From Pseudomonadota bacterium (GTDB lineage Bacteria > Pseudomonadota > Gammaproteobacteria > Burkholderiales > Burkholderiaceae_C), in NCBI GenBank assembly GCA_020161065.1, contig JAIUPH010000026.1, positions 164,621 through 228,620 on the forward strand: 64,000 nt of DNA, written 5' to 3'. The position numbers were made by a program, and so were the translations under genes. The notes below the pieces were generated by a model. The model did not search any database. It saw only the letters and a list, made by a program, of their open reading frames with translations, and was not told the origin of the DNA. This document shows, in pieces, positions 14,779 through 57,365 of the stretch (within the stretch, counting starts at the first letter, position 1; every line of letters starts with the position of its first letter).

Positions 14779-14803
14779 ACACTGCGCCTCGGCGCCACGA
14801 CCT

Positions 14804-14820: not shown

Positions 14821-14864
14821 GTCGCTGCCCATCCTCGGCGCAAACCGCTCACGGGAGTCTGCGC

Positions 14865-20719: not shown

Positions 20720-21177
20720 GCAGCCTGCACAGCAACACCGTGGTCGCGATGCGCGACACCAAGCCCGGCGACGTCGACGGCGCCGCCGCCGAGCGGCCGG
20801 CCGCCGCGCGGGCTTCAGCGGCAGCGCGGACGCCGGCGCCGGCGCCGACGGCCGTCCACGGCCTGGCGCTGCCATTGCTGATCGGCCTGCTGGCGCTGCT
20901 GGTGTCGCTGGGCTACCAGGTCTGGCTGCTCGACCAGGACCGCCAGCAGCTGCAGCAGGCGCAGGCGCAGTTGCAGCCGACGGTGGAAAACGCGCAGCGC
21001 CTGCGCCGCTCGCTCGACCTGCTGGCCGCCGACACCCAGCGCCTGGCCGACGCCGGCAACGGCAGCGCGCGCGTGCTGGTCGAAGAGCTGAAGAAGCGCG
21101 GCATCACGATCAACCCCGCCGCCACGTCGGGCGCGGCCGCCGCTGCGGCCACGGCGGCCAGCGGCGCGGGGAACTGA
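20716..21177 (+). CDS. small membrane coiled-coil protein B (unknown)
   Basis: Up to 153 aa from the TTG at 20716, which overlaps the previous stop (TTGA). ATG 20749 is the alternative and would leave 142 aa. One membrane segment (LALPLLIGLLALLVSLGYQ) is followed by a coiled coil and then VLVEELKKRGITINP. That ending parallels LLQRHGISYNL in the preceding gene, so the two are probably old duplicates. The Ala-rich tail is low complexity. Function unknown. Confidence 0.65.
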   Translation: MSSLHSNTVVAMRDTKPGDVDGAAAERPAAARASAAARTPAPAPTAVHGLALPLLIGLLALLVSLGYQVWLLDQDRQQLQQAQAQLQPTVENAQRLRRSLDLLAADTQRLADAGNGSARVLVEELKKRGITINPAATSGAAAAAATAASGAGN

Positions 21178-21216
21178 GCGGTCCGGCGCCACCGGTGCAC
21201 GCCGCGGCGGAGGCAG

Positions 21217-21256
21217 CCCCCGCGTTTCGGGGGGCCGCGGGCGGCTTGCGCCCGCG
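21217..21256 (+). terminator. double GC hairpin after the giant-protein operon
   Basis: Two adjacent stems: CCCCCG (21217-21222) with CGGGGG (21228-21233), and CGCGGGC (21236-21242) with GCCCGCG (21250-21256). There is no T-run. They could end or weaken transcription of the giant-protein operon before the second AfsR-like gene. Confidence 0.45.
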
Positions 21257-21310
21257 AGCGTGCATTCGTGGCGCCGGCCGCGCCTGGGGGCTGGCCGAGC
21301 CGTTCCTAGA

Positions 21311-39086: not shown

Positions 39087-39115
39087 TTGCTAATGCGAAT
39101 TGTTCGCATTAGAGT
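39087..39115 (+). promoter_or_regulatory. Fur-box-like operator and promoter of the haem locus
   Basis: CTAATGCGAA (39090-39099) and TTCGCATTAG (39103-39112) form a perfect 10-bp inverted repeat around TTG. The GCGAAnnnTTCGC core matches betaproteobacterial Fur boxes. A possible -35 TTGCTA (39087-39092) and -10 TAGAGT (39110-39115), 17 bp apart, are covered by the operator, so bound Fur would block transcription of hemP when iron is high. Confidence 0.7.
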
Positions 39116-39121
39116 CGGTGC

Positions 39122-39379
39122 ATGTCGATGGCCCTGCCCGCTTCCAACGCCGCCGCGCGCTCTGCCGCCGCCAGCGCGATCGCGCCAGAAGCGCCTGCCG
39201 CGCGGGTGCCATCGCCATCGCCATCCCCGCCGCCCCGCGAGACGGCCATCGCCGCCGGCTCGCCGCGCTGGCAGACCGAGCATCTGTTCGGCACGCGCAG
39301 CGAGGTGGAGATCGAGCACCGCGGGGCGATCTACCGCTTGCGCATCACCTCGCTCGGCAAGCTGATCCTCACCAAGTGA
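39122..39379 (+). CDS. hemP: haemin uptake protein HemP
   Basis: An 85-aa protein whose C-terminal 35 residues (LFGTRSEVEIEHRGAIYRLRITSLGKLILTK, cited by its ends LFG and LTK) are the conserved HemP domain. The N-terminal half is an Ala/Pro/Ser low-complexity extension, so a later start is possible. HemP (HmuP) is required for expression or uptake of haem in related bacteria. It directly follows the Fur operator and opens the locus. Confidence 0.88.
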   Translation: MSMALPASNAAARSAAASAIAPEAPAARVPSPSPSPPPRETAIAAGSPRWQTEHLFGTRSEVEIEHRGAIYRLRITSLGKLILTK

Positions 39380-39472
39380 GGCGGCGCCGCCTGCCGCCCC
39401 GTTCCCTCCCGCCGTCAATGCACCAGCCAGCGCCGCGCCAGCACGTGCCCGATCTTGCGAAAGGATCGTCCC

Positions 39473-40003
39473 GTGCCGCTTGTCTGCCTGTTGCCCGCCG
39501 TGGCCCTGCCGCGGCCCCTGCCGCCGTTCTGGCGATCGCCCACTGAAGCCCCGCCGGCGCGCCCGGCGGCCTTCGAACCCGGCGCGCAACGCGACCTGGA
39601 CTGGCCCTGCCTGCGCCAGCGCGACGCCGCCGAGGCCTTGCACGACCTGCTGTGGCGCGCCCTGCAGGCCGGCGTGGGCCTGCGCCTGGGCCTGCACGGC
39701 GGCGCGCGGTCGCTGCAGGTCGACTGCGAACTGCGCCGCCTGTGCGCCGACGGCGGCCGCCTGCGGCTGGAAGCGCCGGGCCTGCAATGGCAGATCGACG
39801 AGGCGGCGATCGCCGAACTGCGCTGCCTGCGCCTCAGCACCGCCGGCGGCGTGCGCCATCGCATCGAGGCGCTGGATGCCAGCGGCCAATGCCTGCTCGA
39901 CCTGCAGGCCCAGACGGCGCCCGGCCGCCGCGAGCCCTGCGCCTGGCGGCTGCTGGTCGACAGCGTCGGCCGCGACGCGATGGAGCCGGAGCGCCCCCAA
40001 TGA
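39473..40003 (+). CDS. HemS/ChuX-like haem-handling domain protein (tentative)
   Basis: A 176-aa protein from GTG 39473, which has AAAGGA upstream; TTG 39455 would add six residues. The segment RIEALDASGQCLLDL followed by PGRREPCAWR resembles the LELFDADG...KPGQPE..AWR region of HemS/ChuX haem-binding or haem-degrading proteins. The match is partial and made by eye. It overlaps the DUF3501 gene by 4 bp. A cytoplasmic haem carrier or degrading role is inferred from location. Confidence 0.5.
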   Translation: MPLVCLLPAVALPRPLPPFWRSPTEAPPARPAAFEPGAQRDLDWPCLRQRDAAEALHDLLWRALQAGVGLRLGLHGGARSLQVDCELRRLCADGGRLRLEAPGLQWQIDEAAIAELRCLRLSTAGGVRHRIEALDASGQCLLDLQAQTAPGRREPCAWRLLVDSVGRDAMEPERPQ

Positions 40004-40662
40004 CCGCCCGCTTCCTGCGCCGCCGCGCGCCGCTGGAGCAGATGCTGCACCTGCTGCAGGACGACATCGACCAGGGCCGCGTGCGCCAGCGCCTGCAGGC
40101 TTACCGCCGCATGCGCACCGTCGCGCTGGGCCCTTGCATGCGGCTGCAGTTCGAAGACCCGGTGACCGTGCAGCACCAGGCCTACGACAGCCTGCCGCCG
40201 CCGCTGCGCCGCGACGGCGCCGCGCTGGCGCGCGCGCTCGCCGAGCGCCGCCACCTGCTGCCCGAGGGCCTGGACTGGCGCGCCACGCTGCAGCTCGGCT
40301 TGCAGGACCTGCGCCGCGTGCCGCGCCCGGGGCTGCCGCCGGTCGACGCGCTGCAAGCCATCCACCTCGACGTGGCGCCCGGCACGCCGGCCGCGACGCG
40401 CGTGCGCGCCGAGCTGCGGCCCGGCGCCGGCGCGCACCCGCTGCTGCGCTTCGCCCTCACGCCGCGGCTGGCGCAGGCGCTGCTGGCCGGCGCCGGCGCT
40501 TCGCTGGGCTGCAACCACCCGGCCTACGCCTGGCGCCACCTGCTGCCGCCGGCCACGCTGAAGCTGCTGCGCCGCGACCTGCACGGCAGCCGCGCCAGCG
40601 CCGCCGACGGCTGGCAGCCCGCCGCCGAACCACTACCGCTGCCGCTGGGCCAGGCCGCCTGA
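40000..40662 (+). CDS. DUF3501-like protein
   Basis: A 220-aa soluble protein. The run TVALGPCMRLQFEDPVTVQHQ resembles the RRVALGPHMTLLFEDRLTMQYQ part of DUF3501, and later LDWRATLQL and LGCNHPAYAW match conserved spots of that family. Function is unknown; DUF3501 proteins are often found near iron or redox genes. Coupled by a 4-bp overlap to the preceding gene. Confidence 0.65.
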   Translation: MTARFLRRRAPLEQMLHLLQDDIDQGRVRQRLQAYRRMRTVALGPCMRLQFEDPVTVQHQAYDSLPPPLRRDGAALARALAERRHLLPEGLDWRATLQLGLQDLRRVPRPGLPPVDALQAIHLDVAPGTPAATRVRAELRPGAGAHPLLRFALTPRLAQALLAGAGASLGCNHPAYAWRHLLPPATLKLLRRDLHGSRASAADGWQPAAEPLPLPLGQAA

Positions 40663-40671
40663 CACCCGACG

Positions 40672-41916
40672 ATGCCGAACGCCATGCCGCCGCTCGAAGC
40701 CCGCCCCATCGTGCCCCTCCTCAGCACCCAGCCCACGCCCAACCCGTCGCTGCCGGGTTCGCGCCGGCGCCGGCTGTGGGAGCTGCCGGGCCATGCGCAT
40801 TGCCCGGTGGTCGGCGTCTGCCTGCCGCTGCCGGCGCTGCGCCGCCTGGTGGCCAAGGCCGGCGGACCCGCCCAGCGGCTGGACGACTACGAGCTGCACT
40901 GCACCGCCGTCAGCGAATGCAAGCGCCGCGGCCCGCTGACCGAGGCGCTGCAGCGCGAGCTGGACCGCCGCGGCCTGCTGGCGCTGCGCCGCGCCGCGCA
41001 GGCCAAGGACGAGCCGGCGCTGGCCGCGTGGTGGCGCGAGGCCTCCGCCGGCAAGGACCTGGGCAGCGCGCTGTGGGCGCTGCTGACGCACCCGTCGTGC
41101 ACGCCGGCGCTGGAAGACCGCGTGCTGGCCGAGGTGCACATGCTGCAGCACCAGGTGGGCATGGCCACGCGCGTGGAGCTGGCGCGCTTCGAGGCGCTGA
41201 TCGACGAGAACGCCGTACTGGCGCGCGAGCTGGCCGGCGCCCAGCAGCGCTGCCTGCGCCAGGCCGCCGACTTCGGCCGCCGCAGCCAGGCGCTGGAGGC
41301 GCAAGCGCTGCGCACCCGCGCCGACCTGATCACCCGCGGCACCGAGCTGGCCCAGGCGCGCGACGAACTGCAGGCGCTGCAGCAGGCCGACCCCGCGCTG
41401 GCCGACCGCCTGGCGCTGGCGCAGGAGAACGCGGCGCTCAAGCAGCGCCTGACGGAAGTGCAGCGCGCGCAGCAGGCGGCCGAGCAGCAAGCCGAACGCC
41501 AGCGCCGCCGCGCCGACGACGCGCAAGCGCTGCTCGCCTTGCGCCAGCAGGCCGCGGCCGCCGAGCCGCCGGCCGCCGCCGCAACGGCAGCCGGCCCCTG
41601 GCTGGCCGAACGCGCGGTGCTGTGCGTGGGCGGCCGCTCGGCCAGCGTGCCGGTCTACCGCCGGGTGGTGGAAAGCACCGGCGGCCGCTTCCTGCACCAC
41701 GACGGCGGCTCGGAAGACAGCCCGCACAAGCTGGACGCCACGCTCGCCGCCGCCGACCTGGTGATCTGCCAGACCGGCTGCGTCAGCCACGACGCCTACT
41801 GGCGCGTGAAGGACCACTGCAAGCGCACCGGCAAGCGCTGCGTCTTCGTCGAGGCGCCCAGCCGCGCCGCGCTGGAACGCGCGCTGGCCGCGGCGGCCAC
41901 CGAGGTGGACGCATGA
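40672..41916 (+). CDS. DUF2325 domain protein with coiled coil
   Basis: A 414-aa protein. Residues 20-150 form a helical N-terminal region, 165-300 a long Gln/Ala/Arg coiled coil, and about 315-414 the DUF2325 domain: VLCVGGRSASVPVYRRVVES, GRFLHHDGG, and LVICQTGCVSHDAYWRVKDHC. Two conserved cysteines (QTGC, KDHC) could bind metal or haem. It is found in haem loci of other Burkholderiales, but its role is unknown. Its stop overlaps the next start. Confidence 0.8.
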   Translation: MPNAMPPLEARPIVPLLSTQPTPNPSLPGSRRRRLWELPGHAHCPVVGVCLPLPALRRLVAKAGGPAQRLDDYELHCTAVSECKRRGPLTEALQRELDRRGLLALRRAAQAKDEPALAAWWREASAGKDLGSALWALLTHPSCTPALEDRVLAEVHMLQHQVGMATRVELARFEALIDENAVLARELAGAQQRCLRQAADFGRRSQALEAQALRTRADLITRGTELAQARDELQALQQADPALADRLALAQENAALKQRLTEVQRAQQAAEQQAERQRRRADDAQALLALRQQAAAAEPPAAAATAAGPWLAERAVLCVGGRSASVPVYRRVVESTGGRFLHHDGGSEDSPHKLDATLAAADLVICQTGCVSHDAYWRVKDHCKRTGKRCVFVEAPSRAALERALAAAATEVDA

Positions 41917-42317
41917 AACAACAGGTCCAGGACCTGCCGCGCGAGGTGTTCCTGCGCCAGCGCTGGGACCGCATCGGCCTCGGCGTGCGCCTGGCCTACA
42001 ACCCCTGGTACCCGGGCGTCATCCGCTGCTACCTGCAGGCCGGCGCGCTGCTGGTCCGCGCCGGCGTGCTGCCCGAGCTAACGGTGCAACAGCGCATGCT
42101 GCAAGTGCTGCTGCAGACCGCCGCCGACCCCGGCCTGCCCTGGGCCTGGCGCAGCGCCTGCCACGAACACATGGTGTTCCCGCTGGCCCGCCTGGCCACC
42201 CTGGCCCGCCTGGGCCTGGGCCCGGCACCCACGGCGTGGCAGCAGCGTGTCGACGCCTGCGCCCGCTTGCTCGACCGCTGCCGCCCCGGCGCCGGCGGTC
42301 CGCAGCGACCGTCCTGA
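41913..42317 (+). CDS. 134-aa protein of unknown function in the haem locus
   Basis: Soluble 134-aa protein starting MKQQVQDLPREVFLRQRW, with many Trp/Tyr and several Cys residues (RCYLQAG, SACHEHM, DACARLLDRC). It contains NPWYPG near residue 30. Its ATG overlaps the DUF2325 stop, so it belongs to the haem operon. No domain is recognised; cysteines and the CHEH pattern would allow metal or haem binding. Confidence 0.65.
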   Translation: MKQQVQDLPREVFLRQRWDRIGLGVRLAYNPWYPGVIRCYLQAGALLVRAGVLPELTVQQRMLQVLLQTAADPGLPWAWRSACHEHMVFPLARLATLARLGLGPAPTAWQQRVDACARLLDRCRPGAGGPQRPS

Positions 42318-42390
42318 TTTCCCGCCACCGCCAGCTTCGCCGCCAGCCGCCTCTCGACGACATCCCCACCCCCTTCCAGGAGACCCTGCC

Positions 42391-44730
42391 ATGGCGCGCG
42401 CTCGCCTTCTTCGTCATGCCTATCCTCGCCCGCCGGCGGCTGCCCCGGCGCTGACGCCGCTGGCCACGGCCGCGTTCGCCGCGTTCGCCGCGTGCACCGC
42501 GTGCGCCGCGTTGCTGGCCCCGGCCCCGGCCCGCGCCCAGGCGCAGGCCGCGGCCCAGCCGCCGACCGCACCGAAGCTCACCGTCTCGGCCACCCGCATC
42601 GAAAGCGCCGAGGACGCGGTGCCCGCCACCGTGACCAGCAAGACCGCGCAGGAGATCGAGCGCGCCGCCGCGCGCGACCTCAAGTCGCTGCTCGAAGACG
42701 AGCCCGGCGTCGCCGTGCGGCTGCAGCCGGCGCGCATGTCGGCGGTGTTCGGCGCGGTCGGCCGCGGCGGCAACGAGGGCATCAACATCCGCGGCCTGGA
42801 AGGCAACCAGGTGCTGCTGCAGACCGACGGCGTGCGCCTGCCGATGACCTATGCCAGCGGCCCCTACGTCGCCGGCCGCGGCGACTACATCGACGTCGAG
42901 GCCTACAAGCGCGTCGAGCTGCTGCGCGGCCCTTCGTCCACCTCGTACGGCAGCGACGGCCTCGCCGGCGCGGTGAGCTTCGTCACCAAGGACCCGGCCG
43001 ACCTGCTGCCGCTGGGCAAGGACTGGCAGGGCTCGCTCAAGCTCGGCTACTCGTCGGCCGACCAGGCCTGGCTGGCCGTGCCCTCGTTCGCCATCAAGAG
43101 CGGCGGCCTGCAGGCCATGCTGCTGGCCAGCGTGCGCCGCGGCCACGAGCTGGAGAACAAGGGCACCAACGAATCACTCGACTGGAACCGCACCGCGCCC
43201 AACCCGCAGGACCGGCGCTCCGACTACCTGCTGGGCAAGCTGATCCTCGACGTGGCGCCGGGCCACCAGCTCAAGGCCTCGCTGGAGCAGATCGACCGCG
43301 ACATCACCACCCGCCCGATCTACACCGTGGTCGGCATGCCCTTCGTCAACGCCAACATCATCGACGCCGACGCCAGCGAGCACGTCAACCGCCGCCTGGG
43401 CAAGCTGGAGTACCAGTACGCCGACAACCGCAACCCCTGGCTGCAGCGGCTCAACGCCTACGTCTTCGACCAGGCGGCGACCAACCGCCAGCTCGGCAGC
43501 GAGCGCTACCGCAGCCCGCCGGCCTCGTGGGCGCGGCGCGACCGCGACACGCTGTACGGCGAAGACAGCCAGGGCCTGGGCCTGCAGGCCGAAAGCAACT
43601 TCGGCGGCGCCGCCGTCGCGCACCGGCTGCTGTGGGGCGTGGACGCGTCCGACACCCGCGTCTACTCGCTGAAGAACGGCGCGCACTACACGGCCGCCGG
43701 CACGCTGATCACCGGCAGCCTGGGCTTCGTGCCCAACCAGAGCTTCCCCGATACCGACTACCGGCTGCTCGGCGCCTTCGTGCAGGACGAGATCAGCATC
43801 GGCCCGGTGACGATCACGCCGGCGCTGCGCTTCGACCGCTTCGAGCTCGACCCCGAGGTCGGCAACCCGCTCTACACCGTCAACAACAAGGTCACGCCGT
43901 CCAAGCTGTCGGGCGACGAACTGTCGCCGCGGCTGGGCCTGACGTGGACGCTGGCGCCGCAGCTGCAGCTGTTCGCGCAGTACGGCCACGGCTTTCGCGC
44001 GCCGACGCCCAGCCAGGTCAACGGCGGCGTCAGCAACACCACGGCCAACCCGCCGTATCGCTCGATCGGCAACCCCGACCTCAAGCCCGAGACCAGCGAC
44101 TCGGTGGAAGTCGGCGCGCGCGGCCGCTTCGGCCCGGTGAAGCTCGGCCTGGCGGTCTTCAAGTCGCGCTACCGCAACTTCATCGACGCCGACATCGACG
44201 TCACCGCCAGCACCACGGTGCCGCTGGACCCCGGCATGGCGGCCAACACGCGCACCTTCCAGTCGGTCAACCTGCGGCGCGCCGAGATCAGCGGCGTCGA
44301 GCTGTCGGCGAACTGGACGATCAGCCGCGAATGGTCGGCCGAGGCGCGCTACGCCCACGCGCGCGGCACCGCCATCAGCGACGGCACGCGCACGCCGATG
44401 GCCAGCATCGAGCCCGACAAGCTGCTGCTGAAAGGCATCTACGAACGCAAGGGGGTGTGGGGCGCCGAGCTGTCGCTGGTGGCGCAGCAACGCCAGAAGC
44501 GGCCCTATGCCGACGGCCTGTACCTGCCGGCCGGCTACGTCGTCGCCGACCTCTCGGCCTGGTGGGACATCAGCCGCCAGTGGCAGTTGCTGGCCGCCGT
44601 GCACAACCTCGGCGACCGCAAGGTCGTGCTGTGGAGCGACGTGCGCGGCCTGGCCGCCAACACCACGCTGGCCGATGCTTACTCGCAACCCGGGCGCAAC
44701 TTCAGCACCAGCCTGAAGTACGTGTTCTGA
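42391..44730 (+). CDS. TonB-dependent haem/haemoprotein outer-membrane receptor
   Basis: A 779-aa receptor. Signal peptide to about residue 50, TonB box region KLTVSATRIES, a plug with INIRGLEGNQVLLQTDGVRL, then a 22-strand barrel ending SLKYVF with terminal Phe. FRAPTPSQVNGG and IGNPDLKPE (about residues 535-570) are the FRAP and NPNL-type boxes of haem receptors. No His lies between these boxes, where HemR-type receptors keep one. CCAGGAGACC precedes ATG 42391. It is followed after 2 bp by the CobN-like gene. Confidence 0.9.
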   Translation: MARARLLRHAYPRPPAAAPALTPLATAAFAAFAACTACAALLAPAPARAQAQAAAQPPTAPKLTVSATRIESAEDAVPATVTSKTAQEIERAAARDLKSLLEDEPGVAVRLQPARMSAVFGAVGRGGNEGINIRGLEGNQVLLQTDGVRLPMTYASGPYVAGRGDYIDVEAYKRVELLRGPSSTSYGSDGLAGAVSFVTKDPADLLPLGKDWQGSLKLGYSSADQAWLAVPSFAIKSGGLQAMLLASVRRGHELENKGTNESLDWNRTAPNPQDRRSDYLLGKLILDVAPGHQLKASLEQIDRDITTRPIYTVVGMPFVNANIIDADASEHVNRRLGKLEYQYADNRNPWLQRLNAYVFDQAATNRQLGSERYRSPPASWARRDRDTLYGEDSQGLGLQAESNFGGAAVAHRLLWGVDASDTRVYSLKNGAHYTAAGTLITGSLGFVPNQSFPDTDYRLLGAFVQDEISIGPVTITPALRFDRFELDPEVGNPLYTVNNKVTPSKLSGDELSPRLGLTWTLAPQLQLFAQYGHGFRAPTPSQVNGGVSNTTANPPYRSIGNPDLKPETSDSVEVGARGRFGPVKLGLAVFKSRYRNFIDADIDVTASTTVPLDPGMAANTRTFQSVNLRRAEISGVELSANWTISREWSAEARYAHARGTAISDGTRTPMASIEPDKLLLKGIYERKGVWGAELSLVAQQRQKRPYADGLYLPAGYVVADLSAWWDISRQWQLLAAVHNLGDRKVVLWSDVRGLAANTTLADAYSQPGRNFSTSLKYVF

Positions 44731-44732
44731 GC

Positions 44733-47700
44733 ATGCGCGCCTTCTTGCTCGGCCTGCTGTGGTTCGTGACGATGGCGGCGCCGGCCGCGGCGCAAGCCGC
44801 CGGCCGCGTGCTGATCGTCACCGCCAGCCCGGTGGCGCCGGGCAAGTTCGTGACGCTGGCGCGCGAGGCCCAAGCGCAGGGCCTGAGCATCGAGGCACGC
44901 TACGCCGAGAAACTGGGCGCCGAGCCCGGCCCGGCGTTGTGGGACGGCGCCGACCTCGTGCTGATCGACGCGCCGCGCCAGCACATCGAAGACTACGTGC
45001 GCGCCAAGCTCGGCGCCGCGCTGCCGGCGCTGGCGGCCAAGCCCCACGTCTGGCTGCCGACCCAGGCGCCCAAGCCCGGCGGCGGGCTGGACGCCGCGTT
45101 CGCGCAGCGGCTGCACGCCTACTACGTCAACGGCGGCCGCGCCAACACGCGCGCGCTGCTGCAGTTGCTGGACGCGCAGATCCGCCGCCAGGACTGGCGC
45201 GGCCTGCCGCCGCCTCAAGTGTTTCCGCCGGCCGCGCTGTACCACCCGGCGCTGCCGTCCACCGTGGTCGCCACGGCCGCCGAATACCTGGCCTGGAAAG
45301 GCGTCGACCCCAGGCAGCCGCACCCGCCCATCGTCGGCATCGCCTTCCACCAGCAGACGGTGTCGGCCGAGCAGACCGGCCTGATCGACGCGCTGGTGCA
45401 GCGCATCGAGGCCGGCGGCGCGATCGCGATGCCTTTCTACAGCCCGGTGCTCGACCCCGACGCAATGCGCCGCCTGCTCAGCGTCGACGGCAAGCTCATC
45501 GCCGACGTGCTGATCAACACCCAGATCACGCTCAGCCCCGAGCTGCGGCGCAACGAGCTGCAGGCGATGGGCATCCCGGTCGTGCAGGCCATGGTCTACC
45601 GCCGCGGCGACGCCGACGCCTGGCGCGCCGACCCGCAGGGCGTGCCGCTGATGGACGTGCCCTTCTACCTGGCGCAGGCCGAGTACACCGGCATCAGCGA
45701 CATCCAGACCGCCGCCGCCACGCGCAAGAGCGACGAGCAGCTCGAAGCCATCGCGCCGCAGGCCGACGCGGTGGCCGCCAAGGCGCTGAACCTGGCGCGG
45801 TTGCGCCACCTGCCGGCGGCCGACAAGAAGCTGGCGATCTTCTTCTGGAACTACCCGGCCGGCGAGAAGAACCTCTCGGCCAGCTTCATGAACCTGCCGC
45901 GCAGCCTGAGCGGCACGCTGGCCGCGCTGCACGACGCCGGCTACCGCACCGAGCGCGTGGCCGAGACGCCGCTGACGCTGCAGCTCCAGCGCCTGCTGGC
46001 CCCTGGCTACCGAGCGCCGCAGGACCAGAGCGCCTTGCGCGAACTGCTGCGCGACGGCCTGGCGGCCAAGCTGCCGCTGGCCGCCTACCGCGCCTGGCTG
46101 ACCACGCTGCCGGCCGCGGTGCAGGCGGCGCTGCGCGACCGCTGGGGCGACCCGGCGCGGTCGAGCATGGTGCTCGACGACGCCTTCGTGATCCCGCGGC
46201 TGCAGCTCGGCAACGTCACGCTGCTGCCCCAGCCCGGCCGCGGCGAGCGCGGCGACGACCGCGAGAAGGCGCTGTACCACTCCACCAGCGCCGTGCCGCC
46301 GCACCACTACCTGGCCGCCTACCTGTGGGTGCGCCAGCCGTTCAAGGCCGACGCGCTGGTGCACTTCGGCACCCACGGCACGCAGGAATGGCTACCCGGC
46401 AAAGAGCGCGGATTGTCGGTGCATGATTGGCCGATGCTGGCCGTCGGCGACGTGCCGGTGCTCTACCCCTACATCGTCGACAACATCGGCGAGGCCACGC
46501 AGGCCAAGCGCCGCGGCCGCGCGGTGATCATCAGCCACCAGACCCCCGCCTTCGCGCCGGCCGGGCTGCACGACAAGCTCACGCGCATCCACGACCTGCT
46601 GCACCAGTGGCTGGCGCAGGACGCCGGCGGCGTGAAGGACCGGCTGCGCGCGCAGTTCCTCGACGGCGTGCGCGCCGAGCGCATCGACCGCGACCTGGGC
46701 TGGGCGGCCGAGCGCATCGAGCAGGACTTCCCGCGCTTCCTGAGCGAGGTGCACGACCACCTGCACGAGCTGGCGCACAGCGCGCAGCCGATGGGGCTGC
46801 ACAGCTTCGGCCAGGGCAGCGGCGAGCAGTGGCGCATCGCCACCGTGCTGATGATGCTGGGCAAGGATTTCTGGGAAGGCGTGGCCGACACCGCGGCCGG
46901 CGAGGAAGCCGACGAGATGCTGGTCGGCGACTACACGAAGCTCCCCGAGTCCAAGCCCTATCGAACCTTGGCCGCGCTGCTCAAGGACGGCACGCTGCCG
47001 CCCGGCCTGAAGCCCGAGCGCGCGGGGCAGGCGCGCGACTGGTACGACCAACTGGGCGCGCAAGGCGAGCTGCGCGGCCTGCTCGACGGGCTGGCCGGCC
47101 GCTACATCCCCACCAGCTACGGCGGCGACCCGATCAAGAACCCCGACGCGCTGCCCACCGGGCGCAACCTCTACGGCTTCGACCCCAGCCGCGTGCCGAC
47201 CAAGGCCGCATGGGAGGCCGGCCAGCAGGCGCTGCAAGCGCTGCTGGCGGCGCACCGCGCCAAGACCGGCAAGCTGCCGGCCAAGCTGGCCTTCACGCTG
47301 TGGTCGGTGGAGACCATGCGCCACTTCGGGCTGCTGGAAGCGCAGGCGCTGTGGGCGCTGGGCGTCGAGCCGGTGTGGGACGCCGGCGGCCGCGTCAGCG
47401 ACGTCAGGCTGGTGCCGCGCGACCGATTGGGCCGCCCGCGCGTCGACGTCGTGCTGTCGGCCACGGGCCTGTACCGCGACCACTTTCCCAACGTGATGAA
47501 GCAACTGGCCCGCGCGGCGCAGCTGGCATCCGAGGCCGACGAGGCCGACAACCCGGTGGCCGACAACGCGCGCCGCATCGGCGCGCAACTGCAGCGCCAG
47601 GGCGTGCCCGCGGCGGAGGCCCGGCGCGCCGGCGCGACGCGCATCTTCTCCTCTGAATCCGGGCGTTATGGCACCGGGCTGGACGACGCCGCGCTGGCCA

Positions 47701-48719
47701 CCGACAGCTGGAAGACGCAAGCCGAGGGCGACCGCAAGCTGGCGCAGCTCTACCTGTCGCGCATGCAATACGCCTACGGCCCGGACGAAGCCGAATGGGG
47801 CCGCTCCGGCGTCTCCACCGCGGGCAAGTTGAACCTCTACGCCGAGCATTTGCGCGGCACCGAGGCCGCGGTGCTGGCGCGCAGCAGCGCGCTGTACGGC
47901 ATGCTGACCACCGACGACCCCTTCCAGTACCTGGGCGGCATCGGCCTGGCGGTGCGCCAGCTCGACGGCAAGGCGCCCGAGCTCTACATCAGCAACCTGC
48001 GCGGCAGCGGCGCCGGCAAGGTCGAAGGCGCGGCCGGCTTCCTGGCCAAGGAGCTGGCGACGCGCAACTTCCACCCCGGCTACATCCAGGGCCTGATGGC
48101 CGAAGGCTACGCCGGCACGCTGCAGGTGCTGGACGGCGTCAACAACTTCGCCGGCTGGCAAAGCGTGGCGCGCGAGATCGTGCGCGACGACCAGTGGCAG
48201 GAATTCATGGACGTCTACGTGCGCGACAAACATAACCTTGGACTCAAACGCTGGTTCGAGGCCCACAACCCGCACGCGCTGGCGCAAAGCATCGAGCGCA
48301 TGCTGGAAGCCGCGCGCCTGGGCCAGTGGAAGGCCGATCCGCAAAGCGTGGCCGAGTTGAAAGCGCGCTACCGCGAGCTGGCCCAACGCCACGACGTGCG
48401 CAGCGACAACGCCACCTTCAAGGCCTACGTCGACGCCGGCTTCGGGCTGCAGGCGCCGGCTGCCGCGCAGCCGCCGGCTGCGGCCGCCGCGGCGCAAGCC
48501 GCGCCAGCCACCGCAGAACCGCCATCGCCGGCACCGCCCCCACCGCCGCCGATCCGCGGCCTGCGGCTGGACCGCGTGCTGCCCACCGTCACCCCCAGCG
48601 ACCTGCCCGGCACGCTGCTGGCGCTGCTGCTGATCGTGCTGGCCACCGCCGGCGGCGCGTGGCGCGCGCGGCCGCTGTCGCGCCCTGAATCGACACCCTT
48701 GACCCCGAGCCCCGCATGA
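44733..48719 (+). CDS. hmuS: periplasmic, membrane-anchored CobN-like chelatase (HmuS type)
   Basis: A 1328-aa CobN/BchH-family protein. Unlike cobaltochelatase CobN it starts with a signal peptide (FLLGLLWFVTMAAPAAAQAAG) and ends with a Pro-rich linker (about 1245-1270) and a membrane helix (LLALLLIVLATAGGAW, about 1293-1308), placing the body in the periplasm. Chelatase motifs are present: HFGTHGTQEWLPGKE (about 544), EVHDHLHEL and SSESGRYGTG (about 974). In Bacteroidetes, HmuS of this kind removes iron from haem. No CobS/CobT ATPase genes are near. The stop overlaps the ExbB-like start, so it probably works with that pair. Confidence 0.85.
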   Translation: MRAFLLGLLWFVTMAAPAAAQAAGRVLIVTASPVAPGKFVTLAREAQAQGLSIEARYAEKLGAEPGPALWDGADLVLIDAPRQHIEDYVRAKLGAALPALAAKPHVWLPTQAPKPGGGLDAAFAQRLHAYYVNGGRANTRALLQLLDAQIRRQDWRGLPPPQVFPPAALYHPALPSTVVATAAEYLAWKGVDPRQPHPPIVGIAFHQQTVSAEQTGLIDALVQRIEAGGAIAMPFYSPVLDPDAMRRLLSVDGKLIADVLINTQITLSPELRRNELQAMGIPVVQAMVYRRGDADAWRADPQGVPLMDVPFYLAQAEYTGISDIQTAAATRKSDEQLEAIAPQADAVAAKALNLARLRHLPAADKKLAIFFWNYPAGEKNLSASFMNLPRSLSGTLAALHDAGYRTERVAETPLTLQLQRLLAPGYRAPQDQSALRELLRDGLAAKLPLAAYRAWLTTLPAAVQAALRDRWGDPARSSMVLDDAFVIPRLQLGNVTLLPQPGRGERGDDREKALYHSTSAVPPHHYLAAYLWVRQPFKADALVHFGTHGTQEWLPGKERGLSVHDWPMLAVGDVPVLYPYIVDNIGEATQAKRRGRAVIISHQTPAFAPAGLHDKLTRIHDLLHQWLAQDAGGVKDRLRAQFLDGVRAERIDRDLGWAAERIEQDFPRFLSEVHDHLHELAHSAQPMGLHSFGQGSGEQWRIATVLMMLGKDFWEGVADTAAGEEADEMLVGDYTKLPESKPYRTLAALLKDGTLPPGLKPERAGQARDWYDQLGAQGELRGLLDGLAGRYIPTSYGGDPIKNPDALPTGRNLYGFDPSRVPTKAAWEAGQQALQALLAAHRAKTGKLPAKLAFTLWSVETMRHFGLLEAQALWALGVEPVWDAGGRVSDVRLVPRDRLGRPRVDVVLSATGLYRDHFPNVMKQLARAAQLASEADEADNPVADNARRIGAQLQRQGVPAAEARRAGATRIFSSESGRYGTGLDDAALATDSWKTQAEGDRKLAQLYLSRMQYAYGPDEAEWGRSGVSTAGKLNLYAEHLRGTEAAVLARSSALYGMLTTDDPFQYLGGIGLAVRQLDGKAPELYISNLRGSGAGKVEGAAGFLAKELATRNFHPGYIQGLMAEGYAGTLQVLDGVNNFAGWQSVAREIVRDDQWQEFMDVYVRDKHNLGLKRWFEAHNPHALAQSIERMLEAARLGQWKADPQSVAELKARYRELAQRHDVRSDNATFKAYVDAGFGLQAPAAAQPPAAAAAAQAAPATAEPPSPAPPPPPPIRGLRLDRVLPTVTPSDLPGTLLALLLIVLATAGGAWRARPLSRPESTPLTPSPA

Positions 48720-49204
48720 CCCCCTGGATCGAAAACACCATGTACGCGGTGGCGCAGCTCTTCTTGCTGCCCACGCTGGCGCTGATTGCGCTGCTGTTCC
48801 TCTACGCCTTCTGGCTGCTGGGCGAGTTCGCGGTGCTGGCTTGGGCGCGGCGCCACGGCGGCGGGCGCCCGCTGGTCGCGGCGCAGCGTGCGCAAGGACC
48901 CTTGAGCGCCGACGAACTGGACCTGCGCGCCCACAAGCTGCTGGAAGGCCCGCGCATCGCCAGCCGCGTGGCGCCGCTCTTGGGCCTGGTGGCCACGATG
49001 ATCCCGATGGGCCCGGCGCTCAAGGGCCTGGCCGACGGCAACCTGGCGCAGGTCTCGCAGAACATGACGGTGGCCTTCTCGGCGGTGATCCTGGCGCTGA
49101 TCGCGGCGGCCCTCGCGTTCTGGATCTCCAACGTGCGACGTCGCTGGCTGGCCGAGGAGCTGCTGGAGATCGGCGCTGCGGCCGCGCCCAAGGCCGGGGC
49201 CTGA
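48716..49204 (+). CDS. MotA/TolQ/ExbB-like proton-channel protein of the haem locus
   Basis: A 162-aa membrane protein with an N-terminal helix (LFLLPTLALIALLFLYAFWLL) and two more (about 84-104 and 115-136) bearing APLLGLVATMIPMGPALKGL, the ExbB/TolQ signature region. It is shorter than the canonical ExbB at 56057. Its ATG overlaps the CobN-like stop by 4 bp. Together with DUF2149 it likely forms a motor dedicated to this haem system. Confidence 0.88.
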   Translation: MTPWIENTMYAVAQLFLLPTLALIALLFLYAFWLLGEFAVLAWARRHGGGRPLVAAQRAQGPLSADELDLRAHKLLEGPRIASRVAPLLGLVATMIPMGPALKGLADGNLAQVSQNMTVAFSAVILALIAAALAFWISNVRRRWLAEELLEIGAAAAPKAGA

Positions 49205-49207
49205 GCG

Positions 49208-49546
49208 ATGGCCATCAAGCTGCTGCACGAGCCCGACAGCGACGACCCCATCCTGTCGGTCGTCAACCTGATCGACATCTTTCTGGTCATCATTGCGGCA
49301 TTGCTGATCACCGTCGCGCAGAACCCGCTGCTCAACCCCTTCAACCCGCGCGACGTCACCGTCATCACCGACCCCGGCAAGCCCAACATGGAAATCGTCG
49401 TCAAGAAGGGCGAGAAGATCGAGCGCTACAAAGCCAGCGGCGCCATCGGCAGCGGCGACGGCGAGAAAGCCGGCGTCGCCTACCGCATGAAGGACGGCTC
49501 GATCGTCTACGTGCCCGAAGGCGCCAAGGCCGGTGGCGGGCCGTGA
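49208..49546 (+). CDS. DUF2149 protein, ExbD/MotB-like partner
   Basis: A 112-aa protein: one membrane helix with an Asp at its start (LIDIFLVIIAALLITVA, about residues 20-36), then a small periplasmic domain (VVKKGEKIERYKASG). An Asp in the helix fits an ExbD-like proton-carrying residue. DUF2149 proteins accompany ExbB-like and HmuS genes. It overlaps the ChaN start by 1 bp. Confidence 0.85.
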   Translation: MAIKLLHEPDSDDPILSVVNLIDIFLVIIAALLITVAQNPLLNPFNPRDVTVITDPGKPNMEIVVKKGEKIERYKASGAIGSGDGEKAGVAYRMKDGSIVYVPEGAKAGGGP

Positions 49547-50421
49547 TGCGCCGACGTCAAGTGTTAGGCAGCGGCGGCTTGCTGCTGGCCGGCTGCGCCG
49601 CAACGCCGGCCGCGGCCGAAGACCGCATCGTCGACACCGCCAGCGGCCGCGAGATCGGCCGCGGCGAACTGGTGGCCCGCCTGCGCGCCGCCGACCTCGT
49701 GCTGCTGGGCGAGCAGCACGACAACGTGCACCACCACCGGCGCCGCGCCGCGCTGATCACCGAGCTGAGCGCGGCGCCCGGCGCGGCCACCGTGATCGTC
49801 GCCGAACACCTGCCGCGCGGCCAGCGCGTGGGCCCCGGCGCCGAGCCGCTGTCGCGGCTGCAGGCCGCCGGCTTCGACCCCAAGGGCTGGGGCTGGCCGC
49901 AGCACGAAGGCCTGTTCGCGCCGCTGCTGGCCGCCGGCATCCCCGTGCTGGGCGGCAACGCGCCGCTGGACGTGGTGCGCGCCGTGGCCCGACAGGGCGA
50001 CGCCGCGCTGCCGCCCGACCTGGCCGCGGCCATCGCCGCCGCGCCGCTGCCGCCCGCGGCCCAGGCCGCGCTGGACCACGAGCTGCTGGACAGCCACTGC
50101 GGCCAGTTGCCCGCGGCCCGCGTGCCCGCCATGCGCGCCGCCCAGCGCCTGCGCGACGCCAGCATGGCCGCCGCCTTGCTGGCCGCCGCCGACGCCGGCG
50201 CCAAGCCCGCCCTGCTGGTGGCCGGCAACGGCCACGTGCGCAGCGACCTCGGCGTGCCCGTGCTGCTGCGCGCGCAGCGCCCGGCGCTGCGCATCGTCAG
50301 CGTCTGCTTCGTCGAGTCGGATGCATCCACCATGCCCTGCGACTACCGCTGGATCACGCCCGGGCCGCCAACGCCGCGGCAGGACCCTTGCGCGGGGTTC
50401 AAGATGCCGGCGCGTGGGTGA
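49546..50421 (+). CDS. ChaN family haem-binding lipoprotein
   Basis: A 291-aa protein with a lipobox at LLLAGC (residues 12-17), preceded by an RRR stretch that could suit Tat export. The ChaN motif LLGEQHDNVHHHRRRA is near residue 45 and the C-terminal VAGNGHVRSDLGVP near residue 225. ChaN binds haem with histidines and belongs to the same family as PhuW. It closes the haem operon and would act at the membrane near the chelatase. Confidence 0.87.
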   Translation: MRRRQVLGSGGLLLAGCAATPAAAEDRIVDTASGREIGRGELVARLRAADLVLLGEQHDNVHHHRRRAALITELSAAPGAATVIVAEHLPRGQRVGPGAEPLSRLQAAGFDPKGWGWPQHEGLFAPLLAAGIPVLGGNAPLDVVRAVARQGDAALPPDLAAAIAAAPLPPAAQAALDHELLDSHCGQLPAARVPAMRAAQRLRDASMAAALLAAADAGAKPALLVAGNGHVRSDLGVPVLLRAQRPALRIVSVCFVESDASTMPCDYRWITPGPPTPRQDPCAGFKMPARG

Positions 50422-51603: not shown

Positions 51604-52779
51604 TCAGCCCAGCGGCACCAGGTGGTTGTCGATCGCCAGCGCGATCGGCCAGCGCAGCATCTTGGCCGGCTGGCTGGGGTGCCAGCGCGCCAGGCCGCGC
51701 GCGGCGGCGATGTACACGCCGTCGGGGCTGGTGCGGCCGTCGTCTTCGGTGCGCCAGGGCGCCAGCGCCCCGGCGCGTTCCAGCTCGCCCACGGTCTGCA
51801 GCGTCTCGGGCCGGCGCGGGTCCCAGCGCAGCACGTGATGTGAGCGTTCGCTCGCCAGGAAGAAACCACCCACCGGGCCGGGTGCGATGTCGCTGGAATA
51901 GCCTTTGCCGATGGCCTGGCGGCTGGGGACGACGAATCGCTGGCCGTCGCAGACGGCCAGCAGCGGCGCTTCGGCGCGGCGGCCGGGGTCGTCGTGCTCG
52001 GCCTGCAGGGCCACGCCGACCAGCGGCTCGCTGCCGTGGCCGATGGCCAGGTGGCGCAGGCTCAGGCGCGGGTCGTCCAGTTCCCAGCGGCCGATCTGGG
52101 CGCCGCTGGCCACGTCCAGCGCCACCAGCGAGGGCTGCATGCGGTCGAGGTCGCGCTTGCGGTCCAGCGCGGCGCGCAGGATGCCGCCGTTGGCGATCCA
52201 CAACCGGCCCGCGGCGTCGAAGCGGATGTCGTGCGGCTCGATGCCGCCGCTCGGCCACTCGCCCACGCGGCGCAGCGTCTGCGGGTCGCGCAGGCTGATC
52301 CAGCCGGCGCTGTCGGCAGCGTCGGTCTCGCTGGTGACGAGGTGGCGGCGATCGGGCGTCCAGGTCACGTGGCCGTTGAAGGTGCGGCGGTTGCCTTCGT
52401 CGGCCAGCGCGTGGCGCGCCAGCACCTCGCCGCGGCCGCCCACGTGCAGCAGCCAGCGGCCCGGCCGGTAGGCCACGGCGAAGAAGCCGCCGCTGCCGTC
52501 GGCCAGCAGGCCATGCACGCGGTCGGGCACCGGCACGGCGGCGCGGATCAGCAGCCGGCCGTCGTCCCAGTCGGGCTCCAGGATGCCCACGTGGTCGCGC
52601 TCCGGCCCGTCGCCCAGCACCTCGCCCTGCGGCGAGAGCGTCTGCGCGCAGCGCCAGGCGGCGGCCACGGCCATCGGCTTGGCGGCGCCGGCCTGCGCGG
52701 CCGCGCCCAGCGGCCAACCGGCCATGACGGCGGCGGCGGCCAGCCAGTGGCGACGGCGCTGATCGATCGGCAAAGGCAT
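51604..52779 (-). CDS. DUF1513 exported beta-propeller protein
   Basis: A 391-aa protein with an N-terminal signal containing RRRHWLAAAAVMAGWPLGAAA, compatible with Tat export. The rest shows propeller-like repeats: RTFNGHVTWTPDRRHLVTSE, IEPHDIRFDAAGRLWIANGG, LRHLAIG. DUF1513 proteins are found in iron-acquisition clusters (for example with EfeO-like lipoproteins). A Fur-box-like site lies about 10 bp upstream of its start. Confidence 0.85.
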   Translation of the reverse strand: MPLPIDQRRRHWLAAAAVMAGWPLGAAAQAGAAKPMAVAAAWRCAQTLSPQGEVLGDGPERDHVGILEPDWDDGRLLIRAAVPVPDRVHGLLADGSGGFFAVAYRPGRWLLHVGGRGEVLARHALADEGNRRTFNGHVTWTPDRRHLVTSETDAADSAGWISLRDPQTLRRVGEWPSGGIEPHDIRFDAAGRLWIANGGILRAALDRKRDLDRMQPSLVALDVASGAQIGRWELDDPRLSLRHLAIGHGSEPLVGVALQAEHDDPGRRAEAPLLAVCDGQRFVVPSRQAIGKGYSSDIAPGPVGGFFLASERSHHVLRWDPRRPETLQTVGELERAGALAPWRTEDDGRTSPDGVYIAAARGLARWHPSQPAKMLRWPIALAIDNHLVPLG

Positions 52780-55269: not shown

Positions 55270-56043
55270 TTGCCGGCCGCTTGGCGGACCGCGAAGACCT
55301 CGTCGTCGACTGCCTTGAACACTTCCGCGCCACCCCCGCCGCTGCCCGTTGCGCTGCTCAGCCAGCACGACGCCGAATTGCGCCCGGCCGAACGGCGGCT
55401 GCTGGTCGGCGGCGTGGGGGCCGTCCACGTGTTGGCGCTGTGGGGGCTGCTGCAGATCGACGTGGTGCGCAACGCCGTGCGCGACGTGGCGCCGCTGGTG
55501 GTCGACTTCGTGACGCTGGCGCCGCCCAAGCCCGAACCACCCGCACCGCCGCCGCCCCGGCCGCCGCGCCCGCAGCCGCAGCGCCAGGCCGTGCAGCCGC
55601 CGCCGGTGCTGTCGGCGCCGCCCACGCCGCAGGCGGCGCCGGCCGCCTTCGTGGTGCCGCCGCCGCCCGTCGAGCCGGCGCCCGTGGTGCAGCACGTGGT
55701 GCCTGCGCCGGTGGCCGCCCCGGCACCGCCCGCCCCGCCGCCCCCGGCACCGCCGCCGCCCAAGCAAATTCCGGCCAGCGAGGTGGCCTACCTGGTGCCG
55801 CCGCCGATCGAGCTGCCGATGGCCTCGCGCCGCCTGAACGAGCAAGGCACCGTGGTGCTGCGCGTGCTGGTGGGCACCGACGGCCAGCCGCGCCAGGTGA
55901 GCCTGCAGCGATCGTCGGGCCACGGCCGGCTGGACGAGCAGGCGATGTGGGCGATGAGGCGCGCCCGCTTCAAGCCACAGACGGAAAACGGCGTGCCGAT
56001 CGAATGGATCGTGATCGCGCCGCTGCAATACGAACTTCAGTGA
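55270..56043 (+). CDS. tonB: TonB energy transducer
   Basis: Couples the inner-membrane proton motive force to outer-membrane receptors. A membrane helix (VGGVGAVHVLALWGLLQI, about residues 47-64) is followed by a Pro-rich periplasmic spacer and the C-terminal TonB domain (LNEQGTVVLRVLVGTDGQPR, WAMRRARFKPQTENGVP). No ATG exists before the helix. The TTG at 55270 is only about 13 bp from the expected transcript start, so TTG 55315 is a good alternative. Followed closely by exbB and exbD. Confidence 0.88.
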   Translation: MPAAWRTAKTSSSTALNTSAPPPPLPVALLSQHDAELRPAERRLLVGGVGAVHVLALWGLLQIDVVRNAVRDVAPLVVDFVTLAPPKPEPPAPPPPRPPRPQPQRQAVQPPPVLSAPPTPQAAPAAFVVPPPPVEPAPVVQHVVPAPVAAPAPPAPPPPAPPPPKQIPASEVAYLVPPPIELPMASRRLNEQGTVVLRVLVGTDGQPRQVSLQRSSGHGRLDEQAMWAMRRARFKPQTENGVPIEWIVIAPLQYELQ

Positions 56044-56056
56044 AGGACTGACAGAG

Positions 56057-56809
56057 ATGGACGCCACGCAAGGCCTGGGCTTCGGCCACTTCCTGAGCCA
56101 GAGCGACGCCGTCGGCAAGACGCTGCTGGTGCTGCTGCTGGCGATGTCGATCGCCTCGTGGGTGCTGATGGCGCTCAAGGGCCTGGCGCAGGCGCGCCGC
56201 CGCCGCCGCGGCGCCGCCTTCCTGGAACTGTTCTGGAACGCCAGCACGCTGGACCAGGTGCGCCACGAGTTGCAGACGCACGGCGCGCACGACCCCTTCT
56301 CGCACCTGGCCGCACACGCGCTGCACGCGCAAGGCCACCACGCCCGCCACGGCGCCACCCGGCTGGCCGACGCCGGCAGCGCCAGCGACTTCATCACCCG
56401 CACGCTGCGCAAGGTGCTTGATGAAGAAACCTTGCGCATGGAGCGCGGCCTGACGCTGCTGGCCACGGTGGGCGCGACGGCGCCTTTCGTCGGCCTGTTC
56501 GGCACCGTGTGGGGCGTGTACCACGCGCTGGTGGCCATCGGCATGAGCGGCGCTGGCACGCTGGACAAGGTGGCCGGCCCGGTCGGCGAGGCGCTGATCA
56601 TGACCGGCCTCGGCCTGGCCGTCGCCATCCCCGCGGTGGTGGCCTACAACGCCTTCACGCGCGCGAACCGCGTGCTGGCCGCGCAGCTCGACAGCTTCGC
56701 GTTCGAGCTGCACAGCTTCCTGACGCTGGGCGAAGCGCCGGGCGCCGCCACCGCGCACGCCCAAGGCGCCGCCGGCAAGGTGCAGGCGCTGCGGCCGGCG
56801 GCCGCCTGA
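56057..56809 (+). CDS. exbB: biopolymer transport protein ExbB
   Basis: A 250-aa MotA/TolQ/ExbB channel protein with three helices: near residues 17-35, and two around TLLATVGATAPFVGLFGTVWGV (about 135-157) and VGEALIMTGLGLAVAIPAVVAYN (cited by its ends VGE and YN). It forms the proton channel that energises TonB. 13 bp after tonB, 21 bp before exbD. Confidence 0.93.
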   Translation: MDATQGLGFGHFLSQSDAVGKTLLVLLLAMSIASWVLMALKGLAQARRRRRGAAFLELFWNASTLDQVRHELQTHGAHDPFSHLAAHALHAQGHHARHGATRLADAGSASDFITRTLRKVLDEETLRMERGLTLLATVGATAPFVGLFGTVWGVYHALVAIGMSGAGTLDKVAGPVGEALIMTGLGLAVAIPAVVAYNAFTRANRVLAAQLDSFAFELHSFLTLGEAPGAATAHAQGAAGKVQALRPAAA

Positions 56810-56830
56810 CGCGAGGACGGGAGACCTGCG

Positions 56831-57250
56831 ATGGCCTTCGCCTCCTTCGACGCCAAGCGCACGCCGATGCCGATGTCGGAGATCAACATGGTGCCGTTGA
56901 TCGACGTGATGCTGGTGCTGCTGGTGATCTTCATCGTCACCGCGCCGCTGCTGACGCACGCCGTCAAGCTGGAACTGCCCAAGGCCAGCGCCGAGGTCAA
57001 CCAGCTCAGGCCCGACAAGATCGAGCTGGCCATCGACGCCCAGGGCCGGCGCTTCTTCAACGGCGAGCAGCTCAGCCGGCAGCAGATGGCCGAACGTTTC
57101 ACGCAAGCCGGCAAGGTGCAGCCGCTGCCCGAACTGCACCTGCGCGCCGACCAGGCCGTCAGCTACCGCGTGGTGGCCGAGACGCTGGCCGATGCCTCGC
57201 GCGCGGGGCTCAGCAAGATCGGCTTCGTCAGCGAGCCTGAAGCCCCTTAG
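56831..57250 (+). CDS. exbD: biopolymer transport protein ExbD
   Basis: A 139-aa protein with the membrane helix INMVPLIDVMLVLLVIFIVT, whose Asp is the proton-carrying residue of ExbD, then the periplasmic domain (LPKASAEVNQLRPDKIELAI). GGGAGACCTGCG precedes the ATG. Completes the TonB motor used by both receptors in this window. Confidence 0.93.
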   Translation: MAFASFDAKRTPMPMSEINMVPLIDVMLVLLVIFIVTAPLLTHAVKLELPKASAEVNQLRPDKIELAIDAQGRRFFNGEQLSRQQMAERFTQAGKVQPLPELHLRADQAVSYRVVAETLADASRAGLSKIGFVSEPEAP

Positions 57251-57365
57251 CCCCTTAGCCCCGATTTCACTTCCCTCGGTACGCCCAGCCACGCGGCAGC
57301 CTCGATCGCTGCGCCAGCCAAGCCAACCGCCTGACTGACCCACGAACGAGAGAGAGAGACCGCCC

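Follow-up and report, generated by a model that had tools for sequence, protein, structure and literature searches.

A predicted iron-repressed haem operon of a beta-proteobacterium with a CobN-like module that may replace the HmuTUV importer

Proteobacterial use of haem iron is usually pictured as import of haem by an ATP-binding cassette (ABC) transporter followed by cleavage by a haem oxygenase, and in the classical system HemS carries the imported haem in the cytoplasm. A route with a CobN-like protein has so far been known mainly from gut Bacteroidota. Here we describe a run of ten genes in a 64-kb stretch of DNA (the window; contig JAIUPH010000026.1, positions 164,621 to 228,620) from a beta-proteobacterium of the Burkholderiales, whose genome is 98.7% complete. 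The run combines genes of a haem operon with a CobN-like class I chelatase homologue, an ExbB-like gene and a DUF2149 gene, hereafter called the module.

In Bacteroidota, HmuS removes iron from haem in an NADH-dependent reaction that yields protoporphyrin IX; according to the accessible part of the report, the H538A exchange abolishes this removal and the motif LSLDHxxEFMGG is strictly conserved across the HmuS family (PMC12583661). Among the entries inspected in our search of the open literature, work on haem use by CobN-like proteins was confined to Bacteroidota, most subscription papers being outside the reach of the search.

All ten genes of the run (window positions 39122-50421) are on the + strand, in the order hemP, HemS half-domain, DUF3501, DUF2325, 134-aa protein, TonB receptor, CobN-like, ExbB-like, DUF2149 and ChaN, and eight of them exceed a curated Pfam or NCBIfam cut-off, which bears out the same-strand run described in the initial annotation. 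The assignment of the run to haem-iron use is well supported by its context, and we hold with moderate confidence that it is a haem-iron operon whose CobN-like protein would act in the periplasm with an ExbB/DUF2149 pair, in place of HmuTUV, and remove iron from haem.

This proposed replacement can be followed in the relatives. Within a comparison set of 60 genomes of the same genus, HemS exceeds the PF05171 cut-off in eight, and the operons of G003, G008, G031 and G032 contain hemP, a TonB receptor, a full HemS and a FecCD-type permease. A binding protein and an ATPase are also present in G031 and G032, the two operons checked for them, and G032 additionally has a TonB-like gene. The receptor of the window is 38-39% identical to the receptors of these four classical operons, two of which carry DUF2325 (G003, G032) and one a relative of the 134-aa protein together with ChaN (G032). 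The comparison of gene order that the initial annotation had proposed locates the module at the HmuTUV position, with accessory genes in both types of operon. On this gene order, the CobN-like, ExbB-like and DUF2149 genes appear to stand in place of HmuTUV.

Using the G031 permease as query, no HmuU orthologue was found in any of 52 genomes carrying the module (49 reached through 50 of the 80 surveyed loci, at least nine of them of CirA-type, see below, plus the window's own genome G000, G013 and G049), the best match reaching 46% identity. HmuU was also not found in G012, which has HemS and no PF02514, or in G014, which has a HemS-like half and a split PF02514 gene. The positive controls, all of the same genus (G003, G007, G008, G032 and G031, the source of the query), gave 69-100% identity, and other, non-haem permeases in the genus score 47-51%. 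Haem oxygenase of the PF01126 family occurs in 8 of the 52 module genomes compared with 22 of the 60 genus genomes; as G000, G013, G023 and G049 have none, the latter figure is 22/56 without them (p = 0.009, uncorrected).

In the window's own genome the single PF02514 protein is the CobN-like protein of the run, and FeoB is present. Two FecCD permeases exceed the cut-off. The first lies in a B12 cluster, with BtuC/BtuF-like genes, a stretch read as CobQ-like and a BtuB-like receptor (TonB-B12 model, 455 bits, below the equivalog cut-off of 599.7). The second (C7) has as neighbours DUF2478 and a protein that scores 24.5 bits for HTH_1 (cut-off 26.6), and its cluster might perhaps serve molybdate. 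No haem-type FecCD permease was found in this genome, where the best HmuU match (42%) is the B12 permease, and a hidden FecCD-type haem importer was sought by genome-wide permease searches and not found. No PF01126 haem oxygenase was detected in the whole genome, the search leaving out the HutZ/HugZ, IsdG, ChuW and DyP types, and nothing matched HemS beyond the weak match in the window. The initial remark that no haem permease or oxygenase is visible therefore extends, for FecCD and PF01126, to the whole genome.

The second gene of the run had been called HemS/ChuX-like. Its product falls below the PF05171 cut-off of 24 bits, and the name is upheld by BLAST (best E-value 7.5e-7, L139) and by iterated hidden Markov model searches, in both of which it corresponds to the C-terminal half of HemS proteins with two domains. 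In alignment A2 it lacks the N-terminal half and the whole DTH(D/E)FF segment, the histidine of which we take to be the haem ligand of PhuS and ChuS; the classical HemS proteins of L138-L140 retain the segment. Longer HemS-like genes above the cut-off lie between hemP and DUF2325 in the module loci L004, L006 and L008 (27, 64 and 72 bits), and their products also lack the DTHDFF histidine. Such a loss would be expected in module loci if haem ceased to enter the cytoplasm. The histidine is likewise missing from the HemS-like protein of L145 (G014), with no module seen in its 17-kb contig. Judged from these alignments, the HemS-like protein of the window corresponds to half of an ordinary HemS and has decayed.

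The CobN-like protein has a hydrophobic N-terminal stretch (residues 3-22) and a C-terminal transmembrane (TM) segment at about 1285-1312, and hydropathy thus predicts that it is exported and anchored in the inner membrane at both ends. Its best PDB match is HmuS (9d26, 407 bits), followed by CobN (7c6o, 366) and ChlH (4zhj, 348). In its HFGTHG motif, His548 corresponds to the catalytic His538 of HmuS, a position that is His in 120 of 120 aligned rows, i.e. superfamily-wide. A quick tree groups the 85 rows of the window's family in one clade and places the window's protein in a subclade of 11, both with SH-aLRT 100. Among the ten genes of the run, Pfam shows no AAA+ partner.

We propose that the TonB-driven receptor would carry haem into the periplasm, where ChaN may bind it. 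The inner-membrane-anchored CobN-like protein would accommodate the tetrapyrrole within its central cleft; the conserved HFGTHG histidine would free the iron. The proton-motive ExbB/DUF2149 pair could perhaps do the work that ATPase partners do for CobN and ChlH. The freed iron would enter as Fe(II) via FeoB. With haem not reaching the cytoplasm any more, HemS could have degenerated to a half that lacks the haem ligand. From this context we infer haem as the substrate, the removal of iron, the energy coupling and the fate of the protoporphyrin. Of the periplasmic iron-stripping route put forward in the initial annotation, the exported and anchored CobN-like protein and the lack of a haem ABC permease and of a PF01126 oxygenase stand, and FeoB is present; the de-chelatase step is one that we infer, since the HmuS signature residues are not kept (see below).

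Haem could also be imported intact, with the CobN-like protein as a periplasmic receiver, the ExbB/DUF2149 pair and the anchor passing haem inward, and iron being freed inside by an enzyme of a type outside the search. We regard this as unlikely. Although the module sits at the place of HmuTUV with no HmuU orthologue beside it, Pfam shows no permease-like protein among the ten genes; and although class I chelatase subunits bind tetrapyrroles, the nearest solved relative, HmuS, demetallates. DUF2325, with its invariant His and Cys residues, could handle haem in the cytoplasm, but the cytoplasmic carrier HemS is without its ligand segment, and PF01126 was not found in the window's own genome or in 44 of the 52 module genomes.

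The range of the module was surveyed in 80 loci from 227 confirmed relatives. Its core recurs across beta-proteobacteria, including Rubrivivax (L008 being the locus of Rubrivivax gelatinosus DSM 1709), Paucibacter, Rhodoferax, Zoogloea, Azonexus and others. When typed by the nearest labelled reference, the receptors are haem-type in 48 loci and CirA-type in 22, and 10 loci are without a called receptor. Haem markers (hemP, DUF2325, ChaN or HemS within 9 kb) accompany 36 of the 48 haem-type loci and one of the 22 CirA-type loci; among loci with full flanks the counts are 31/36 versus 0/16 (Fisher p 2e-9, uncorrected for kinship). ABC/NnrS-like neighbours, named by reading, occur at 4/48 and 7/22 loci, respectively. 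As the catalytic motif of the CobN-like protein is identical in both kinds of locus, it is the receptor and the neighbours, and not the enzyme, that point to haem.

Seven loci (L031, L043, L047, L055, L057, L059 and L063) have the module with ABC/NnrS-like genes by reading, a CirA-type receptor (named for L055) and no haem genes, and in the six measured (all but L047) there is no Fur-like site under 6 mismatches. The core in these loci seems to serve another ligand. In L002 and L159 (G013:C42) the order is hemP-DUF2325-CobN with no receptor gene between; on this gene order, the module can apparently lose its own receptor.

Upstream of the run lies a perfect palindrome, 9 bp before the hemP ATG, which is the sole perfect 10-bp-arm palindrome of its kind within the window and which we presume, from the Fur consensus, to be a Fur box. 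Its core pattern AATGNNAANNNTTNNCATT has a single match in the window's own genome, the operator itself, so that no further own-genome site, as sought to confirm Fur, was obtained. The pattern scan of relatives, with the own copy L082 counted once, gave 23 sites. Among them are sites 5' of hemP in three of the four classical operons (L155, L166 and L167; none in L164) and in the module loci L006 and L008, and module-locus sites precede hemP, DUF2325 or the receptor, the placement in L070, L079 and L154 being unclear. The operator is common to module-type and classical haem ABC operons. Using two Fur-like consensus forms on the 66 module loci with a receptor directly before the CobN-like gene, sites upstream of the receptor were found in 36 loci with up to 4 mismatches and in 18 with up to 3, compared with 0/66 stretches inside the CobN gene and 3/1320 shuffles at up to 4. 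A Zur-like 13-mer with up to 2 mismatches was found in 0/66 loci, 0/66 controls and 10/1320 shuffles, and Zur control of the module was rejected. The run is probably an iron-repressed operon with Fur as its regulator; the predicted site has similar ones in relatives and agrees with the Fur-type haem locus of the initial annotation.

Several findings weigh against the removal of haem iron by the CobN-like protein. In its segment LTTDDPFQYLGG, Asp1062 and Gln1065 occupy the positions of HmuS His1209 and Glu1212; across the family these positions are Asp in 84 of 84 and Gln in 83 of 84 rows that reach them, which are the canonical CobN letters. At the head/neck haem site of HmuS (Met79/His254), whose Met79 region fell outside the alignment, His254 meets Ile in the match to 9d26 or a gap in 84/85 family rows, in a weakly aligned region. 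The Met-rich insertion is missing, the aligned blocks being separated by about 162 residues versus about 327 in 9d26. The HmuU difference between module genomes (0/52) and the 56 genus genomes taken as module-free (5/56; a few of these have split PF02514 genes, and G051 has the L160 variant) is a crude count uncorrected for kinship (p = 0.058), and a more distant HmuU may escape the search because its positive controls were of the same genus only. Strong PF01126 matches occur in G061 and G107, two of the ten genomes in the subclade to which the window belongs, and the other oxygenase types noted above were outside the search. Fur-like sites are present at CirA-type loci too (8/21, with 28/47 at haem-type loci), and the enzyme need not be haem-specific, since its motif is common to these loci. 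From the accessible parts of the sources, a Bacteroides fragilis btuS1 btuS2 double mutant still produced protoporphyrin (PMC6460266), and PA1922-1925 of Pseudomonas aeruginosa is under Zur (PMC4542158, PMC8531726, PMC13083405).

The last of these points bears on a further explanation, in which the substrate is a metal chelate other than haem (of zinc or cobalt, or a metallophore) and the neighbouring haem genes are a separate unit. As far as the published descriptions could be accessed, PA1922-PA1925 has a similar core and looks like the CirA-type kind of module locus, and the absence of haem markers from full-flank loci of that kind and the motif shared by both kinds would also suit a non-haem ligand. 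For the window we consider this quite improbable: a single operator precedes its ten same-strand genes, its receptor exceeds haem/haemoglobin cut-offs, haem genes are near most full-flank loci of its type and the 66 loci have no Zur-like site.

The residues around the HmuS active site also bear on the naming of the CobN-like protein. The initial match of the second half of the run to the HmuR-HmuS set of Bacteroidota holds for the order of the core (HmuR-HmuS-HmuU-HmuV) and fails for the HmuS signature; strict HmuS membership was rejected with His1209 and Glu1212 replaced and the insertion missing (4 Met in the 167-residue stretch where 9d26 carries it). By sequence, the protein is a relative of HmuS in another clade and not an HmuS member. 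NCBIfam names it otherwise (NF004644, 'cobaltochelatase subunit CobN', 1397.5 bits, cut-off 1248), and an ordinary B12 cobaltochelatase subunit would share its Asp/Gln pair and could be accommodated by the B12 cluster elsewhere in the genome. However, three canonical CobN rows of the genus, which also have Asp at the His1209 position, read HVGKHG rather than HFGTHG and fall outside its clade, the run contains no cob genes by Pfam, and the protein has a signal-like N-terminus, a membrane anchor and a receptor, ExbB and DUF2149 as partners. This explanation is very improbable and was rejected on location, clade, motif and partners.

The BchH-like rows of the genus have VD(N/T)YFDTLGG in the His1209 region, and in the 120-row alignment His at this position is found only in 9d26 and L160. 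The latter (G051:C33, 3844-10944), from the same genus, encodes a CobN-like protein in which the HmuS-type histidine is retained (SNHHAYEYLGG), together with ExbB, DUF2149 and a receptor that is weakly haem-receptor-like, below cut-offs. It is possibly a true HmuS outside Bacteroidota; its nearness to HmuS is not readable from the quick tree, because both are long branches.

The first half of the run, initially left unexplained, is now explained in part: hemP, DUF2325, the 134-aa protein and ChaN have counterparts in classical operons of relatives, and HemS would be a decayed half. DUF2325, the 134-aa protein and ChaN were considered as CobN partners and dropped, all three being present in a classical haem operon. 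As the accessory genes occur in classical haem ABC operons, they belong to haem uptake generally.

In alignment A1 (n = 17), DUF2325 has invariant His76, 140, 156, 160, 342, 343 and 373 and Cys318, 366, 370, 383 and 390. Its structure model (pLDDT 84, pTM 0.46) consists of a helical N-terminal domain, a long coiled coil and a small alpha/beta C-terminal domain; among the 60 matches listed, its profile meets solved structures over the coiled-coil stretch only, and none of its fold-search matches attained E ≤0.001, small alpha/beta domains ranking top. In Campylobacter, a DUF2325 gene is near katA and a haem-trafficking gene, as far as the accessible text describes it (PMC9426514). Our guess is that DUF2325 could be a haem- or redox-responsive factor. 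An ORF of the classical G032 haem operon (L166:4695-5093), itself unmatched in Pfam, shares 55% identity with the 134-aa protein across 85 aa. The structure model of the 134-aa protein (pLDDT 51) is too poor for use. A literature search on ChaN found nothing relevant. A second DUF3501 copy elsewhere in the window's genome adjoins an Fe-S oxidoreductase-like ORF; a different arrangement is seen in L157 (G045:C122, 2239-4906) and L158 (G016:C450), where divergent DUF3501 copies adjoin DUF2325 genes.

The features of the run are collected in Table 1. The initial annotation had most genes joined by 4-bp overlaps, which is an overstatement, as at most four of nine junctions overlap in this way: HemS/DUF3501, DUF2325/134-aa, CobN/ExbB and, if ChaN starts at GTG 49543, DUF2149/ChaN. 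Three other junctions have gaps of 9, 2 and 3 bp, the 134-aa gene and the TonB receptor are 73 bp apart, and the hemP-HemS spacing is not fixed because the HemS start is uncertain. The hemP start is most likely ATG 39122 and not 39087. The topology of DUF2149 would be ExbD-like.

Table 1. Operator and genes of the ten-gene run, in window coordinates
Feature	Position	Strand	Evidence
Operator, perfect 10-3-10 palindrome CTAATGCGAA-TTG-TTCGCATTAG, Fur-box-like	39090..39112	.	Pattern scan
hemP, haemin uptake protein	39122..39379	+	PF10636, 58 bits
Degenerate HemS C-terminal half-domain	39380..40003	+	PF05171, 13 bits; start codon uncertain, e.g. TTG 39455
Divergent DUF3501 protein	40000..40662	+	PF12007, 56 bits
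DUF2325 protein	40672..41916	+	PF10087, 85 bits
134-aa protein	41913..42317	+	Matches no Pfam/NCBIfam family
TonB-dependent haem/haemoglobin-type receptor	42391..44730	+	TIGR01786, 381.5 bits (cut-off 323.75); TIGR01785, 345 bits, also over cut-off
CobN-like class I chelatase homologue, 1328 aa	44733..48719	+	PF02514, 995 bits
ExbB/MotA/TolQ-like proton channel protein (HmuU-like of Bacteroidota)	48716..49204	+	MotA_ExbB PF01618, 32 bits
DUF2149 protein (HmuV-like of Bacteroidota)	49208..49546	+	PF09919, 100 bits; single TM 11-45 by hydropathy
ChaN-like haem-binding lipoprotein	49543..50421	+	PF04187, 129 bits; LLLAGC lipobox by reading of sequence

Just 3' of the run, a DUF1513 protein is encoded at 51604-52779 (-); upstream of the module in the Rhodoferax locus L027, this family is found together with a di-haem oxidoreductase and a gene of imelysin type. 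About 5 kb downstream (55270-59675), there are ORFs resembling TonB, ExbB and ExbD, the last two recognised by eye, with a second TonB receptor, and a TonB/ExbB/ExbD-like trio adjoins the module in several relatives. At 11713-24220, a secreted-looking ORF of 1865 aa lies between two ORFs of about 1000 aa.

Taken together, CobN-like, ExbB and DUF2149 might be a portable motor for metal extraction in the periplasm, combined with varied TonB receptors, with a beta-proteobacterial haem form that takes over from HmuTUV, HemS and, in many cases, haem oxygenase. With an active-site His and Asp/Asp and Gln unlike HmuS, it could be a second haem de-chelatase clade outside Bacteroidota, usable by aerobes; we put this forward tentatively, as less than an even prospect. 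If true, an enzyme currently annotated as a B12 protein would free haem iron outside the cytoplasm in a whole set of beta-proteobacteria. The clade would also supply a naturally occurring variant of the HmuS active site and tie DUF2325 and the 134-aa family to haem.

Compared with known systems, the locus shares with Bacteroidota HmuYRSTUV a TonB haem receptor, an exported and anchored class I chelatase homologue, an ExbB-like protein and DUF2149 in this order, as well as iron-type control and the His538 position within HFGTHG. It differs in that none of the ten genes matches HmuY by Pfam, HmuT being without a family model, the CobN-like protein lacks His1209, Glu1212 and the Met-rich insertion and leaves His254 unmatched, the run adds hemP, a HemS remnant, DUF3501, DUF2325, the 134-aa protein and ChaN, and the host is a beta-proteobacterium and not a gut anaerobe. 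P. aeruginosa PA1921-PA1925 likewise unites in one operon a TonB receptor with CobN-like and ExbD-annotated genes, although that operon is zinc/Zur-controlled and has no haem genes reported in the accessible part of the source (PMC4542158). The BtuS family (PMC6460266) also counts among the closest systems known. With proteobacterial HmuRSTUV/BhuRSTUV, the locus has in common hemP, the haem receptor, HemS (as a remnant) and the operator, and with those of some relatives also DUF2325, the 134-aa protein and ChaN; it departs from them in having CobN-like, ExbB and DUF2149 instead of HmuTUV, and a HemS half without the ligand segment.

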